A DNA stretch of 64,000 nt, taken from contig JAGWZE010000017.1 in the NCBI GenBank assembly GCA_018969015.1, positions 1 through 64,000 on the forward strand, given 5' to 3'. Within the stretch, counting starts at the first letter, position 1. Every line of letters begins with the position of its first letter. Shown piece after piece: positions 11,816 through 17,948 of the stretch. Under the pieces are notes generated by a model, which was not told the origin of the DNA, ran no database searches, and saw only the letters and a list, made by a program, of their open reading frames with translations. This DNA is from Alphaproteobacteria bacterium (GTDB taxonomy: Bacteria; Pseudomonadota; Alphaproteobacteria; Caulobacterales; Aquidulcibacteraceae). The position numbers and the translations under genes are program-made.

Positions 11816-12421
11816 ATGACCCCTCGCGTCATCCTCCTCGGCGGCGGCACCGGCTCGGGCAAATCCGCCCTCGCGGCCGCGCTCGCGCAGGCGCTCGCTC
11901 CGGCGCTGCGCATCAACGAGGACGACTATTACATCTGCGCCTCGACCATCCCGGGCTTCGACGCCGCCGCCTACAATTTCGACGTGCCGGCCGCAAAAGA
12001 CCTGCCGCTGCTCGGTGCGCATCTGGAAGCGTTGCGCGCCGGCCGCGCCGTCGACGCGCCGCGCTACGATTTCGCCACCCATACGCGCTTGCCCGCGCCA
12101 CAGACGCTGCAGCCCGCCGCCACCATCATCGTCGAAGGCCTGCACGCGCTCGGCGCCGAAGAGGTCCGCGCGCGCGCCGATCTCAGCGTGTTCGTGCATG
12201 CGCCCGAGGAGGTGCGTCTCGCGCGCCGCCTCGTGCGGGACGTGCGCGAGCGCGGCCGCGACATCGAGGGCATCGTCGCGCAGTTTCTCGGCACCGTCCG
12301 CCCGATGCATGCGCTGCACGTCGAGCCGCATAGCGCGATGGCGGACCTCGTCGTCGACGCCGAAGCCGAGCGGCCCGAAGCCTTGTGCCGCCGGATCCTC
12401 GCACGGCTCGGCGCCCCCTGA
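11816..12421 (+). CDS. Uridine-kinase-like P-loop NTPase
   Basis: A 201-residue protein starting MTPRVILLGGGTGSGKSALA, with a Walker A motif (GGGTGSGKS) at residues 9-17. It then has INEDDYY, matching the DxDxFY-type substrate-side motif of uridine kinases; RYDFATHTR, like the YDF.TH of Udk; and IIVEGLHAL, matching the uridine kinase IxEGxxxL strand. It probably phosphorylates a nucleoside or similar small alcohol with ATP. It lies 17 bases after tamB in the same direction, with no clear ribosome-binding site, so it may be the last gene of that transcript. It faces the hybrid kinase gene tail to tail. Whether uridine is the true substrate is not shown by sequence. Confidence 0.75.
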   Translation: MTPRVILLGGGTGSGKSALAAALAQALAPALRINEDDYYICASTIPGFDAAAYNFDVPAAKDLPLLGAHLEALRAGRAVDAPRYDFATHTRLPAPQTLQPAATIIVEGLHALGAEEVRARADLSVFVHAPEEVRLARRLVRDVRERGRDIEGIVAQFLGTVRPMHALHVEPHSAMADLVVDAEAERPEALCRRILARLGAP

Positions 12422-12433
12422 TCCTGCGAGCAC

Positions 12434-14830
12434 TCACCGAGGCGTTCGCAGGAAATCGGCAAGGTCGTCCGCGGAGAACGGCTTGTGCAGCACCGCCTCC
12501 CCGTCGAGGCGCGTTTCATCGCCCGTGTGGCCCGTCATGAACACGACGCGCGCCTGCGAATCGAGGCTGCGCAGGTTCGCCGCCAGCGTGGGCCCGTCGC
12601 CGCCCGGCATCACCACGTCCGTCAGCACGAGATCGTAGCGGCCGGGCCGGTAGAGTGCGCGCGCATCCGCGGCGCCGCCCGCCACGTCCACCCGCACGCC
12701 GAGATCCGCAAGCAGCGCCGCGGCGACCGCCCGCACGTCGGGATCGTCGTCGACCAGCAGCACGCTCCCTGGCAGCGGCGCGGCCGCCGGCGACGGCAGC
12801 GGCGCCGGCTCCGGGCTCACACGCGCTCGCGGCAGATACAGCGACGCCTCCAGGCCATCGTCGCGATTTTCGAGCACGAGCGCCCCGCCCGTCTGTCGCG
12901 CGAAGCCGTGCGCCATCGCCAGGCCAAGCCCCGACGCCCGCCCCGGCTCCTTCGTCGTGAAGAACGGCTCCACCGCCCGCTGCAGCACCTCCGCACTCAT
13001 GCCGCCGCCGTGATCGCCCAGCGACACCCGCACACACGGACCGATCCGCTCCGGCGCGCGGTCGGCCGGCACGTTCTCGGCGCGCAGCGTGACGGTCCCG
13101 TGCCCGTTCATCGCATCGCGCGCGTTGGCCGCAAGATTGACGAGCGCCAGATCGAATTGATCCGTGTCCGTCATCGCGGGCCAGAGGTCCGGCGCGACGT
13201 CGACGTTCAGAACGATGTCCGCGCCCAGCGCGCGCTGGACGATGCCGGCGGCATCCGCAAGATGCGCGGTCAAATCCACGGGACGCACTTCGAGGGCGTC
13301 GCGCCGCGCGAACGCCCGCATCTGGCGAACGAGCTGAACGCCCCGCTGCGCCGCAGCGACGCCCTGGCGCGCGAAATCCTTGATCCGCTCGTCCGTCACG
13401 CCGCGCTGGACGAGATTGAAGGCGCCGATCACCGCCGCGAGAAGATTGTTGAAATCGTGCGCAAGACCGCCGGCCAGATGGCCGAGCGCATCGAGGCGAT
13501 GGGCGCGCAGCAGCGCCTCCTGCGTCGCCTCCCGCCGGCGCACCTCGTTCTCGACGCGCGCTGTGAGTTCGGCATTGGCGCGCGCCATGGCGATCCGCGT
13601 GCGCGCATGCTCGGTGGTGTCGCTCGATTGGGCGATGAGAAACGCCACCGCGCCCGTCTCGTCCCGCACGGCCTTGATCGCGCCCGACGCACGCCGCGCC
13701 GGTGCGCCGTCGGCGACGCGGACGCCCACCTCGAACGGCGCCGGCGAGGGCGAAGCCAGCGCCGCGGCGACCGCCTCGCGTATGCGGCGGCGATCGCTCT
13801 CGAATGCGGGCGTCGCCCAGAACGGCGCCTCCCACAACGGCGCGCCGACGATGTCCCCGCGCCCGAGGCCCGCGCGCGCGAGCGTACTCTCCGCCACGTC
13901 GGTGACGATCCCCGCGGGATCAAGCAGCGCCATGAACTGCACCTGCTCGTGGAACACCGCGCGAAACCGCCGCTCGCTGCGGGCGAGCGCAGCCTCGGCG
14001 CGCCGCCGTTCCGTGATGTCGATGATGACGCCGGACATCCGCGGCGGGTCGTTGGGCCCGCTCGTGGGACGCCCGCGGCTCATCACCCAGCGCACTTCGC
14101 CCGAGGGCAGAACGAGACGGTAGTCCTGGCTGTAGCTCGCGCGCAGGCGCACGCAGCGATCGAACTCGGCGCGGACGCGCTCGCGATCCTCCGGGTGCAT
14201 CATCGCGATGAACGCCTCGCGGCTGGGTGTCTGGTTGTCGGGCGCCGCGCGCCAGGTCGTGTGCATGACGGCGCCCGTCGCCGCGTTCCAGTCCCACACG
14301 ATCATGTCCGCCGCGCCCGCCGCGAAGCTCAAACGCTCGGCCGCGTCGCGCGCGCCGCTTTCACTGCGGGCGGCGGCGGCGTGCAGGGCGGCGCGCTCGA
14401 TTGCCCCGCCGATCGCGGCGGCGAAGATGCAGGTGAGCCGTTCGTCGTCTTCGGGCGCCGGGCGCGCGGCGGACGCCGCCAGCGCCAGCACCCAGCACGT
14501 CGCATCCTCCGCGTGGCAGGGCGCCGCGAACGCTTCGCCGCCATCGTCAACCGGACCGTCGCGCGCGTGCGCCCGCTGCGCCAGCGCGATCAGGGCCGTA
14601 TGATCGGCGGTCTGCGCGCCATCCTCGAACGTCGCGGACACGTGCGTCGTCTCGCGCCCGACGCACACCAGGGCGCCTGCGCAAAAGCCGGCGTCGCGGG
14701 CAAAGGGCGCGAGCGCCGCCAGCGCCGAATCTCCGTCAGCTTCGGCGCGCAGACGCGCCAAGGCGCCGTCGATTAGCTCGACGACGCTGACGCCTTCCGA
14801 AGCGCGCCGGATACCGGTCGCGTACGTCAT
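12434..14830 (-). CDS. Hybrid sensor histidine kinase with PAS domains and receiver
   Basis: 798 residues, cytoplasmic (no membrane segment seen). Order: GAF-like N-terminal region (about 30-150), PAS with C-terminal motif (about 168-280; MMHPEDR and DITERRRAEA), second PAS (about 285-410), HisKA with phospho-acceptor His458 in GGLAHDFNN, HATPase (about 500-650), and a C-terminal receiver (about 680-798) with acidic pocket VDDDP, phospho-acceptor Asp in LTDVVMPGGDG and the conserved Lys in LHKPF. An in-frame GTG at 14866 also exists, but it sits inside the predicted EcfG promoter. The ATG at 14830, with GGAGGG 11 nt upstream, is therefore preferred. It has no adjacent DNA-binding partner: the gene downstream in its direction faces it tail to tail. 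The signal sensed is unknown. Confidence 0.9.
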   Translation of the reverse strand: MTYATGIRRASEGVSVVELIDGALARLRAEADGDSALAALAPFARDAGFCAGALVCVGRETTHVSATFEDGAQTADHTALIALAQRAHARDGPVDDGGEAFAAPCHAEDATCWVLALAASAARPAPEDDERLTCIFAAAIGGAIERAALHAAAARSESGARDAAERLSFAAGAADMIVWDWNAATGAVMHTTWRAAPDNQTPSREAFIAMMHPEDRERVRAEFDRCVRLRASYSQDYRLVLPSGEVRWVMSRGRPTSGPNDPPRMSGVIIDITERRRAEAALARSERRFRAVFHEQVQFMALLDPAGIVTDVAESTLARAGLGRGDIVGAPLWEAPFWATPAFESDRRRIREAVAAALASPSPAPFEVGVRVADGAPARRASGAIKAVRDETGAVAFLIAQSSDTTEHARTRIAMARANAELTARVENEVRRREATQEALLRAHRLDALGHLAGGLAHDFNNLLAAVIGAFNLVQRGVTDERIKDFARQGVAAAQRGVQLVRQMRAFARRDALEVRPVDLTAHLADAAGIVQRALGADIVLNVDVAPDLWPAMTDTDQFDLALVNLAANARDAMNGHGTVTLRAENVPADRAPERIGPCVRVSLGDHGGGMSAEVLQRAVEPFFTTKEPGRASGLGLAMAHGFARQTGGALVLENRDDGLEASLYLPRARVSPEPAPLPSPAAAPLPGSVLLVDDDPDVRAVAAALLADLGVRVDVAGGAADARALYRPGRYDLVLTDVVMPGGDGPTLAANLRSLDSQARVVFMTGHTGDETRLDGEAVLHKPFSADDLADFLRTPR

Positions 14831-14858
14831 CGCAGGCCACGCCCTCCACGACGCGCCT

Positions 14859-14883
14859 AACGTCACCGCTCAAGCCCGGTTCC
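14859..14883 (-). promoter_or_regulatory. EcfG (general stress sigma) promoter of the hybrid kinase
   Basis: On the minus strand GGAAC (14883-14879) is followed after exactly 16 bases by CGTT (14862-14859), the full consensus of the alphaproteobacterial general-stress sigma factor EcfG/SigT. Transcription would start near 14852, about 20 bases before the chosen ATG. The match is to a published consensus; promoter activity is inferred. Confidence 0.65.
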
Positions 14884-14937: not shown

Positions 14938-16485
14938 TCAAAGCGGCAGCGTGATCCGTACGCGTGCGCCGCCGCCCGGCGCATCGTCGATCGCGACCGC
15001 GCCGCCATGCGCGCGCACGACCGAGCGCACCACCGCAAGCCCGAGCCCAGCTCCCGAAGCCTTGTCCGGCGCCAGGCGGACGAACGGCTCGAACACGTCC
15101 CCGCGCCGCTCCGCAGGTATTCCGGGTCCGGAGTCTTTCACCTCGATCTCGACAGAGCCGCCCGCCACGCCGACACGCACCTGCGCCTCGCCGCCATAGC
15201 GAACCGCGTTGTCGACGAGATTGGCGACCATGCGCTTCAGCCCGAGCGGCTGGCCCGTCATGACGACCCGATCTTCGCCCTCGTAGCGCACCGGCTCGCC
15301 CGCGGCCGCGTGATCATCGACGACGCTTTGAACGAGCGCCGCGACGTCGAGGCGCACGCGCGCATCGCGGGCGGGATCGTCGCGCGCGAACGCAATGAAG
15401 GAGGCGACGAGCGCATCGATTTCCTCGGCGTCGCGCGCGAGGGCGTCGCGCACGGCGGGTTCGGCAGCTTCGGCGGTGAGCCGCATCCGCATCAACGGCG
15501 TGCGCAGATCGTGCGCGACGGCGGCGAGCATTTCCGTGCGGTCCGCGACGAGGCTGCGCAGGCGATCCTGCATCGCGTTCACCGCGCGCGCCGCGACGCG
15601 CAGTTCCTTCGGCCCCTTCTCCGGCACCGGCTCGCCGCGCGGATCGACGCCCACGCGCTGCGCCGCATCCGCAAAGCGCCGGATCGGCGCGGCGAGGCGC
15701 GCGGCGAACACGAGCCCGAGCGCGAGCGCGATGGCGAACGCGCCGCCCACCGCGACGACCGCCGTCACGAGCCAGGCCAGATCGTCCGCGGTGCGCCGTT
15801 GCCGCAACACGAGCCAGCGCCCGTCCGGCAACTGCGCGCTGACGACGAAGCGCGCAAAGAACACCACGCCTTTCGCCGGCGCCTCGAAGCGCGGCGGCGG
15901 CGGCGGTTCAGGCGGGGCCGGCGCCGCGGGCGGCGCGGACGCGCCCGTCGTGCCGAGCGCCTCGAGCACGGCGCGCACCTCGGGGGACTGCGGCGCGAGG
16001 CTGCGCAGCGTGTCGGGCGGCGGCGGCGGCGGCGATCCGTGCGGCGCCCCCGGCGCCAGTCCCGGCGGGCCGCCATGGGTGCGCACGCTCAGCTGCCGCA
16101 CCTCGCGATAGATCACGACGTCCGCTGGCGGCCGCTCGAAGGAGATCGCGACGCCATCGCGCGGCGCGCCCAGGCGTGCGGCGAGCAGCGCTTCGAAATC
16201 GCGCGTGAACGGCGGCCGCGGCCCCGCCGCGCGCGGCGGGCTGTCCTCGATGCGGAAATCGCCGAGATCCGAACGCGGCAGCGGCTTGCCCGCTTTCGCC
16301 GCCGCGAACCCGCGCTCGAACGTGTCGAACACGACGCGATGCGGCGCGACGCCCGGCGGGCGCGGCGGCAGCCCCATGATCACGCCGACATTCACCACAT
16401 AAGTGACGAGCAGCGCCGCCGCGATCAGCAGCGCCACGTGCGCCGCGATCGGCAGGCCCTGCGCAAAAGGCCGCGGCGGCTTCAT
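14938..16485 (-). CDS. Membrane sensor histidine kinase of a two-component system
   Basis: 515 residues: TM1 (12-38), a periplasmic sensor region (about 40-235), TM2 (237-260), HAMP (258-312), HisKA with His325 in AAVAHDLRTPL, and HATPase (about 410-515, with NLVDNAVRYGG, DSGPGIP and GAGLGLA motifs). The periplasmic region is unusual: it contains two proline-rich tracts (residues 151-157 and 184-199). The start is the ATG whose first bases overlap the stop of the response regulator gene upstream (4-nt ATGA overlap), so the two are co-translated. The EF-hand protein divergent to the pair, itself proline-rich and periplasmic, is the likely target or partner (inference). The frame stays open further upstream, but that part is inside the regulator gene and low-complexity Arg-rich, so it is rejected. 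Confidence 0.9.
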   Translation of the reverse strand: MKPPRPFAQGLPIAAHVALLIAAALLVTYVVNVGVIMGLPPRPPGVAPHRVVFDTFERGFAAAKAGKPLPRSDLGDFRIEDSPPRAAGPRPPFTRDFEALLAARLGAPRDGVAISFERPPADVVIYREVRQLSVRTHGGPPGLAPGAPHGSPPPPPPDTLRSLAPQSPEVRAVLEALGTTGASAPPAAPAPPEPPPPPRFEAPAKGVVFFARFVVSAQLPDGRWLVLRQRRTADDLAWLVTAVVAVGGAFAIALALGLVFAARLAAPIRRFADAAQRVGVDPRGEPVPEKGPKELRVAARAVNAMQDRLRSLVADRTEMLAAVAHDLRTPLMRMRLTAEAAEPAVRDALARDAEEIDALVASFIAFARDDPARDARVRLDVAALVQSVVDDHAAAGEPVRYEGEDRVVMTGQPLGLKRMVANLVDNAVRYGGEAQVRVGVAGGSVEIEVKDSGPGIPAERRGDVFEPFVRLAPDKASGAGLGLAVVRSVVRAHGGAVAIDDAPGGGARVRITLPL

Positions 16486-17213
16486 CCGCGTTTCGGGCGC
16501 ACGGCGAACACGTAGCCCTCGCCCCGCACCGTGCGGATGAGCTCGCCCGCGCCCGGCCGATCGAGCTTGCGGCGCAGCCGGCTCACCTGCACGTCGACCG
16601 CGCGATCGAACGCGTCGGTATCGGAGGAGAACGCGAAATCGAGCAGCTGGTCGCGCGTCAGCACGCGCTCGGGCCGCTCGACGAAGGCGCGCAGAAGGCG
16701 GAACTCGCCGCCCGACAACGCGACGAGCACGCCGTCCGGATCGAGCAGTTCGCGGCGCGCGCAATCAAGCTTGAAGCCCGCGAACCGGTACACGTCGCCG
16801 CGCCCGCGGACGGAGTCGTCGTCCTTCACGCGCCGCAGCACCGCCCGCGCGCGCGCCACGAGCTCGCGCGGGTTGCACGGCTTGGAGAGATAGTCGTCGG
16901 CGCCGACCTCGAGCCCCACGATGCGGTCCGCGTCGTCGCCGAGCGCGGAGAGCACGATGATCGGCGGCCGGCCCTGCGCGGCGAGCCGGCGGCAGGCAGA
17001 AAGGCCGTCCTCGCCCGGCATCATCAGGTCGAGCACGATCAAGTCGGCGCCGCTCTGCTCGAGCTTGCGGTCCATGTCGGCGGCGTCGGACGCGGTTTCG
17101 GCCTCGAAGCCCGAGCGGACGAACACCTGCTGCAGCCCTTGCCGGATGGCGGGATCGTCGTCGACGATCAGGACGCGGGGGCGGTCAGGCGAAGGCGACG
17201 TCATGGCAACCAT
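16482..17213 (-). CDS. OmpR-family response regulator
   Basis: 243 residues: receiver domain (about 12-125) with acidic pair VDDDP, phospho-acceptor Asp62 in LIVLDLMMPGEDG and conserved Lys in LSKPCNP, then a winged-helix Trans_reg_C domain (about 145-240) ending ELIRTVRGEGYVFA. It is the DNA-binding partner of the kinase immediately downstream. Two starts are possible: the ATG at 17213, with no spaced ribosome-binding site, or the ATG at 17204, with a G-rich stretch at better spacing. The protein differs by only three residues. Its promoter must lie in the 141-base gap shared with the divergent EF-hand gene, where an 18-bp perfect palindrome is a candidate binding site. Confidence 0.93.
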   Translation of the reverse strand: MVAMTSPSPDRPRVLIVDDDPAIRQGLQQVFVRSGFEAETASDAADMDRKLEQSGADLIVLDLMMPGEDGLSACRRLAAQGRPPIIVLSALGDDADRIVGLEVGADDYLSKPCNPRELVARARAVLRRVKDDDSVRGRGDVYRFAGFKLDCARRELLDPDGVLVALSGGEFRLLRAFVERPERVLTRDQLLDFAFSSDTDAFDRAVDVQVSRLRRKLDRPGAGELIRTVRGEGYVFAVRPKRG

Positions 17214-17225
17214 CCCCGCTCTCTG

Positions 17226-17243
17226 CCGGAAAAGCTTTTCCGG
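17226..17243. promoter_or_regulatory. 18-bp perfect palindrome between divergent TCS and EF-hand genes
   Basis: CCGGAAAAGCTTTTCCGG is perfectly self-complementary. It lies 13 bases before the response regulator start, in the 141-bp gap shared with the divergent EF-hand gene. No gene ends here, so it is not a terminator. It may be a dimeric regulator site, possibly for autoregulation. Confidence 0.5.
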
Positions 17244-17354
17244 GATGTTTCAGGTCCGTCACGAACGGTTGCAAACCCGGCGTATCCGCGCAACGGCGCC
17301 GCGTTTGGTTAAGGCTGCGGCGGGCGCGAGGACACCCGCCGCATGGAGGATCTC

Positions 17355-17948
17355 ATGACCAGAATGAAGCATGTCGGTGTGGCCCTCGTCGCGCTCCTGG
17401 GAGCGAGCGGGGTCGCCTCGGCGCAACCGGCCGCCCCCGGCCGGCCCGAGCCGCCGCCGCGCCCGCCGGCGGTCGACACCAACAAGGACGGCGTCGTCAC
17501 CCGCGCGGAGGCCGGCGCCGCCGCCGACGCCCTGTTCGCCAGGCTCGACGAGAATGGCGACGGCGCCCTGACGCCAACCGACAAACCGTCGCGCGGCGGG
17601 GACCGCGTGTTCGAGCGCCGGTTCGAAACCAAGGACGGCCGGGAAATCCGGATCGAGCGGCGCGAGTTTCGCGGACCGGGCGGGCCCGATGGCCCGGGTG
17701 GTCACGGCGGCCCGGGCGGACCGCCCCGCCCGCCGCATCCGCCGATGGGTCTGCTCGTCTTCGCCTCGATGGAGGAGGCCGACGCCAATGGCGACGGCAA
17801 GGTTTCGAAGGACGAGTTCCGCGCCATGCAGCTGCGCTTCTTCGACGCCGCCGACGTGAACGGTGACGGCAAAATCAAGGCGCCGCCCATGCCGCCCGAA
17901 CCGCCGGAGCCGCCCGAGCCTCCGGCGCCGCCGCCTCCGCCGCGCTAG
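17355..17948 (+). CDS. Secreted EF-hand calcium-binding protein
   Basis: 197 residues with a signal peptide (MTRMKHVGVALVALLGASGVASA-Q, cleavage near residue 24) and four EF-hand loops in two pairs: DTNKDGVVTRAE (41-52), DENGDGALTPTD (65-76), DANGDGKVSKDE (143-154) and DVNGDGKIKAPP (167-178). The last lacks the acidic residue at position 12 and may bind weakly. The pairs are separated by a Gly/Pro-rich linker (107-130), and the protein ends in a PPEPPEPP-type tail. The start is the ATG at 17355, with GGAGGA 4 bases upstream. It is transcribed divergently from a two-component system. By analogy with Ca-responsive systems such as CarRS and its EF-hand partners in Pseudomonas, it may be regulated by or report to that system; this is inference. 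Confidence 0.88.
   Translation: MTRMKHVGVALVALLGASGVASAQPAAPGRPEPPPRPPAVDTNKDGVVTRAEAGAAADALFARLDENGDGALTPTDKPSRGGDRVFERRFETKDGREIRIERREFRGPGGPDGPGGHGGPGGPPRPPHPPMGLLVFASMEEADANGDGKVSKDEFRAMQLRFFDAADVNGDGKIKAPPMPPEPPEPPEPPAPPPPPR

Follow-up and report, generated by a model that had tools for sequence, protein, structure and literature searches.

The sensing of extracellular Ca2+ by bacteria is poorly understood, and most bacterial EF-hand proteins are without a named partner. The present locus, from an alphaproteobacterium of the Aquidulcibacteraceae (Caulobacterales), raises the question of whether a secreted EF-hand protein and the two-component system encoded next to it constitute one functional unit and, if so, whether the EF-hand protein is only an output of that system or also acts on its kinase. 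The window is the whole stretch analyzed, 64,000 nucleotides of contig JAGWZE010000017.1 (positions 1 to 64,000). Judged from sequence, a co-regulated three-gene unit is strongly supported. The reading given a slight preference here goes further: the three genes would form an autoregulated, envelope-sensing module resembling CpxRA-CpxP, with the EF-hand protein as an accessory protein feeding back on the kinase.

Gene organization and protein features

The preliminary description, a two-component system divergent from a secreted EF-hand protein with both kinase and EF-hand protein proline-rich, is borne out by the reading frames, the Pfam matches, and the proline tracts. The response regulator (16482-17204, reverse strand) belongs to the OmpR family by Pfam and NCBIfam. 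It has the receiver (Response_reg, PF00072, E 1.1e-29) and winged-helix DNA-binding (Trans_reg_C, PF00486, E 1.1e-21) domains of the OmpR/PhoB family, and orthologues within the window's family are 71-77% identical. The end of its frame overlaps by 4 bp the start of the sensor histidine kinase (14938-16485, reverse strand), which contains, in order, TM1, a periplasmic region of about 200 residues, TM2, HAMP, HisKA, and HATPase_c and has orthologues in relatives. Directly downstream of this operon is a PAS-type hybrid histidine kinase with a C-terminal receiver (12434-14866), which is not conserved at other loci.

The kinase type was left unnamed in the preliminary description; however, the cytoplasmic half is EnvZ/CpxA-like. 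A fold search with the kinase model gave matches in this half, to CpxA and EnvZ structures, and among NCBIfam models the kinase scores best with EnvZ, RstB, and CpxA, in each case under the curated cut-off. The best models for kinase and regulator, EnvZ (190.9 against a cut-off of 415) and OmpR (231.6 against 331), score far under the equivalog cut-offs that would indicate EnvZ-OmpR orthology. For the periplasmic core a small alpha/beta fold is predicted, into which a disordered segment is inserted at approximately residues 136-208, although this structure prediction, made from four sequences only with a mean pLDDT of 57.9, is a rough guide. Proline tracts are found at residues 152-157 and 189-199, close to the 151-157 and 184-199 first given, and the region spanning them (15889-16032, reverse strand; pLDDT 25-35) falls in this low-confidence, probably disordered insert of the modeled domain.

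The EF-hand gene (17355-17948, forward strand) is transcribed divergently, with 150 bp between the regulator start and its own. Its open frame is 17343-17948, but the start is probably the ATG at 17355 rather than the beginning of the frame. From this ATG the protein has 197 amino acids, comprising a signal peptide (MTRMKHVGVALVALLGASGVASA, followed by Q), an EF pair, a middle Pro/Gly segment, a second EF pair, and a Pro-rich tail ending in Arg. The match to Pfam EF-hand_5 (PF13202) has an E value of 6.5e-17 and 60.6 bits, against a cut-off of 25.9. Loops 1 and 2 (DTNKDGVVTRAE and DENGDGALTPTD; 17475-17582, forward strand) and loops 3 and 4 (DANGDGKVSKDE and the truncated DVNGDGKIKAPP; 17781-17888, forward strand) are recognized by sequence, Pfam, and conservation in the family. 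The tail is conserved as well (KAPPMPPEPPEPPEPPAPPPPPR; 17877-17945, forward strand); in each of the 12 family members measured, the final 25 residues include 8-15 prolines. Because the EF loops are canonical, Ca2+ binding is likely. Predicted alone, the protein has a pLDDT of 44.6, a model not good enough to be interpreted.

Two profile matches were rejected as identities. Lanmodulin (LanM) is likewise a periplasmic alphaproteobacterial EF-hand protein and gives a weak profile match, but the 48.8 bits fall far short of the cut-off of 135, and the loops here, which begin DT, DE, DA, and DV, do not have Pro at position 2. XopAW scores far below its profile cut-off. EF-hand_5 matches occur at only two loci in the whole assembly. 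The other EF-hand gene (at L158:8784-10748, G000:C50) has a glnE-like gene and a further regulator-kinase pair upstream of it, and genes for an ECF-type sigma factor and a periplasmic protein with Metal_resist (PF13801) come after it.

Conservation of the divergent unit

Conserved co-occurrence of the genes in related genomes, proposed in the preliminary description as a check, was found in two surveys. When 60 relatives were searched with all three proteins and stretches fetched around the regulator, 16 same-family relatives proved to have a close regulator orthologue, and 15 of these, all except G002, have the divergent EF-hand gene. Across 150 genomes of the order, a sample dominated by two families in which EF-hand genes outside the window were recognized by loop pattern rather than a full family search, an EF-hand gene is divergent from the regulator orthologue in 20/21 genomes of the window's family and 15/23 of a second family (tallies include the window). 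Kinase and regulator are retained without the EF-hand gene in nine genomes (eight from the second family, and G002), so the EF-hand gene is not essential for retention of the kinase. Five second-family loci without it (L134, L228, L235, L240, and L242) have in common a metallo-beta-lactamase-fold hydrolase upstream of the regulator.

The other neighbors in the window, namely the PAS-type kinase at 12434, a sulfite reductase cluster, a LysR gene, and a uridine-kinase-like gene at 11844, are absent from the relatives' loci beyond weak kinase cross-matches. As the flanking genes are not conserved, the three genes appear to travel as a unit. Beyond the order, Pannonibacter phragmitetus, P. indicus, and two further genomes of the class also have an EF-hand gene in divergent position; most of the class members examined do not. 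Paralogous regulator-kinase pairs, with approximately 50% regulator identity, face one or two EF-hand genes at most loci examined, and their upstream motif differs (GACACAnTTTG, 18.3 against about 12 bits). In one set of these paralogous systems (L142-L146, L148, L149, L151, L153, and L154) the first EF-hand gene often has a lipoprotein-like signal (LTAC) and the second has 5-6 EF loops.

Beside some related regulator-kinase pairs the EF-hand gene is replaced by a gene of the LTXXQ (Spy/CpxP) type, divergent in L201 (2434-3000) and L216 (648-1154) and co-oriented in L140 (6104-6715); the assignment is confirmed by Pfam for L140 and made by sequence pattern for L201 and L216.

A predicted operator in the divergent promoter

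An unsupervised Gibbs motif search of the 170 bp before the EF-hand start at 16 loci gave a 20-bp site, TGTTKC-N5-TGTTTCA, in all 16 (24.7 bits, against 10.6-11.1 in shuffled controls). A 42-bp form ending in an inverted half-site scored 35.1 bits, against 15.0-15.3 in controls. The window copy of the direct repeat GTTKC-N6-GTTKCA is the predicted operator AGCTTTTCCGGGATGTTTCA (17233-17252, forward strand), which has a weaker first half (TTTTC) and needed a looser pattern to match. A possible third, inverted half-site, GGTTGCAAACC (17267-17277, no strand assigned), comes from the 42-bp motif, and relatives have GGAAACG or GACGCAA at equal spacing. Direct repeats at 11-bp spacing are typical of sites for the OmpR/PhoB family, and this 11-bp repeat is present in 20/20 same-family units, while the second family has a related form, GTTGC-N6-GTTGCA, at the same position.

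The position of the repeat suggests what it controls. Two second-family loci without an EF-hand gene (L240 and L242) keep it upstream of the regulator, which suggests autoregulation. In L122, L127, L128, and L131 a secreted gene of the beta-lactamase family is found between the regulator and the EF-hand gene, in the direction of the regulator, and here the repeat stays beside the EF-hand gene, between it and the beta-lactamase-family gene. The latter has PF00144 in L122; the others are 59-75% identical to that of L122 or to each other, or read alike.

Searches of 16 genomes of the family with the strict repeat gave 0-7 matches in each. Only the divergon copies have homologous neighbors, so the divergon itself appears to be the main regulon; the remaining matches have no neighboring genes in common and were ruled out as a regulon. 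In the window's own genome, scanned with IUPAC patterns rather than a PWM, the loose pattern has six matches, one of them the divergon. The other five are taken mostly as chance, the reversed control giving two. The regulator very probably has as its main targets the EF-hand gene and the operon that it forms with the kinase, given that these are transcribed away from each other on either side of a single conserved tandem-repeat operator. The phosphorylated regulator would bind the GTTKC repeats and control both promoters.

Proline-rich composition and matching of sensor and EF-hand protein

The unusual composition said to be common to kinase and EF-hand protein stands up to measurement. Among 35 coding-like frames in the window, local proline density is highest by far in the EF-hand protein (15 per 20 residues, the next being 8), and the kinase, measured separately, has 11 per 20. 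Because this density stands out and EF-hand_5 loci are so few in the assembly, the pairing of a proline-rich kinase with a proline-rich EF-hand protein is not attributed to chance. Throughout the family both proteins retain their tracts, and the kinase sensors have 8-12 prolines per 20-residue stretch in 12/12 measurable loci, against 3-8 in control paralogous kinases. Together with the conserved divergent pairing and the common operator, the matching composition upholds the initial proposal of one functional unit.

Sensor length and EF-hand protein length are correlated (Spearman 0.93, n=12), but the relation is weaker after correction for regulator distance (partial Mantel r 0.41, permutation p 0.03, n=10), so it is partly phylogenetic and taken as suggestive only. 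Five loci of one genus have an Ala/Glu/Arg-rich helical insert in both proteins. The single exception to size matching is L119, with a long Glu/Arg/Ala-rich helical insert in the kinase sensor and a short EF-hand protein. In mirror-tree distances the EF-hand protein correlates better with the catalytic half of the kinase than with the sensor. The EF loops are canonical in nearly all orthologues, whereas the linkers vary freely.

Role of the EF-hand protein

The analogy with CpxP, the exchange with LTXXQ genes, and the matched proline-rich segments make an action of the EF-hand protein back on the kinase, in the periplasm, the most likely arrangement, with Ca2+ the likely ligand of the loops. 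The EF-hand protein would be exported to the periplasm and bind Ca2+ or a similar ion, and its middle and proline-rich parts may then act on the proline-rich part of the kinase sensor, which would complete a feedback loop. This action would parallel the effect of CpxP on CpxA and be gated by ion binding. Direct contact, the sign of the feedback, and Ca2+ as the ligand are all presumed in this scheme.

A plausible competitor, rated less likely than not, is that the EF-hand protein is output only, a regulator target that buffers Ca2+ or stabilizes the envelope with no action on the kinase. The operator accounts for the gene pairing without any contact, and the nine genomes that keep the kinase without the EF-hand gene are in line with this. 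Pseudomonas CarSR and efhP offer a case of a regulator controlling an EF-hand gene, with no action on CarS reported in the accessible text of that source. However, the matching proline-rich segments, the correlated sizes, and the LTXXQ exchanges fit a sensor partner better. Equally credible, and again less likely than not, is a signal other than calcium, such as osmolarity, misfolded protein, or another metal, with a structural or chaperone-like EF-hand protein in which Ca2+ is only structural. The best scores of kinase and regulator, to EnvZ, RstB, CpxA, and OmpR models, are consistent with such a signal, as are the LTXXQ neighbors in relatives, which represent envelope stress and metal chaperone families; against it, almost every orthologue has canonical loops alongside linkers that vary freely, and the paralogous systems have retained one or two EF-hand genes. 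Chance neighborhood or passive vertical inheritance could draw on a sample taken mostly from two families, but is highly improbable given that the surroundings are entirely different between loci, conservation of the operator greatly exceeds that in shuffled controls, and the same divergent layout recurs in Pannonibacter, two other class members, and the paralogous systems.

A broader form of the feedback reading, tentative and on balance unlikely, is that these loci represent an envelope-sensor class of their own, with three components. In this class the EF-hand protein and the proline-rich insert of the sensor would evolve as a matched pair, kinase activity would be set not by a ligand bound to the kinase but by the Ca2+ loading of a soluble EF-hand protein in the periplasm, and the EF-hand partner would be evolutionarily exchangeable with chaperones of the CpxP/Spy type. 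No published description of the present module was found in open papers, and searches for EF-hand with UzcR or with Caulobacter returned nothing matching.

Comparison with known systems

The comparison with Pseudomonas made in the preliminary description is retained, the name usually being written CarSR rather than CarRS. Two-component systems that respond to Ca2+ include CarSR, CvsSR, and CiaXRH. In P. aeruginosa, transcription of efhP requires CarSR (also BqsSR), so that, as is predicted here, a putative periplasmic EF-hand protein is under the control of a two-component system (PMC11559002). The calcium response of CarSR is experimentally established, EfhP has two EF hands, and a divergent position of efhP relative to carSR is not part of the description (PMC11559002). 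In Streptococcus mutans, calcium represses the ciaXRH operon by way of its product CiaX (PMC8317062). As in the present system, a protein with a calcium-binding domain is encoded with its two-component system, and autoregulation, predicted in the present case, is via tandem repeats, there NTTAAG-n5-WTTAAG (PMC8317062). CiaXRH differs in being Gram-positive, in having CiaX in the same operon, and in that calcium repression is demonstrated; CiaX is described as a small peptide with an SD domain, not an EF-hand (PMC10574481).

The system also resembles CpxP-CpxA-CpxR of Escherichia coli. Both have an OmpR-type regulator, a CpxA/EnvZ-type kinase, and a divergent gene for a small periplasmic protein under a common control region, and the EF-hand gene thus has the position relative to its regulator-kinase operon that marks CpxP/Spy-like genes. 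ZraP-ZraSR is a comparable system. The accessory protein here is an EF-hand protein in which Pfam finds EF-hand families and a weak Dockerin_1 match but no LTXXQ domain (PF07813), the operator is GTTKC-N6-GTTKCA, and inhibition of the kinase would be by analogy. A few relatives of the present system nevertheless carry an LTXXQ gene in the position of the EF-hand gene. Conservation of the operon arrangement and of the operator points to the likely partner and the regulator of the EF-hand protein, and the locus also connects EF-hand proteins with kinase accessory proteins of the CpxP/Spy type.
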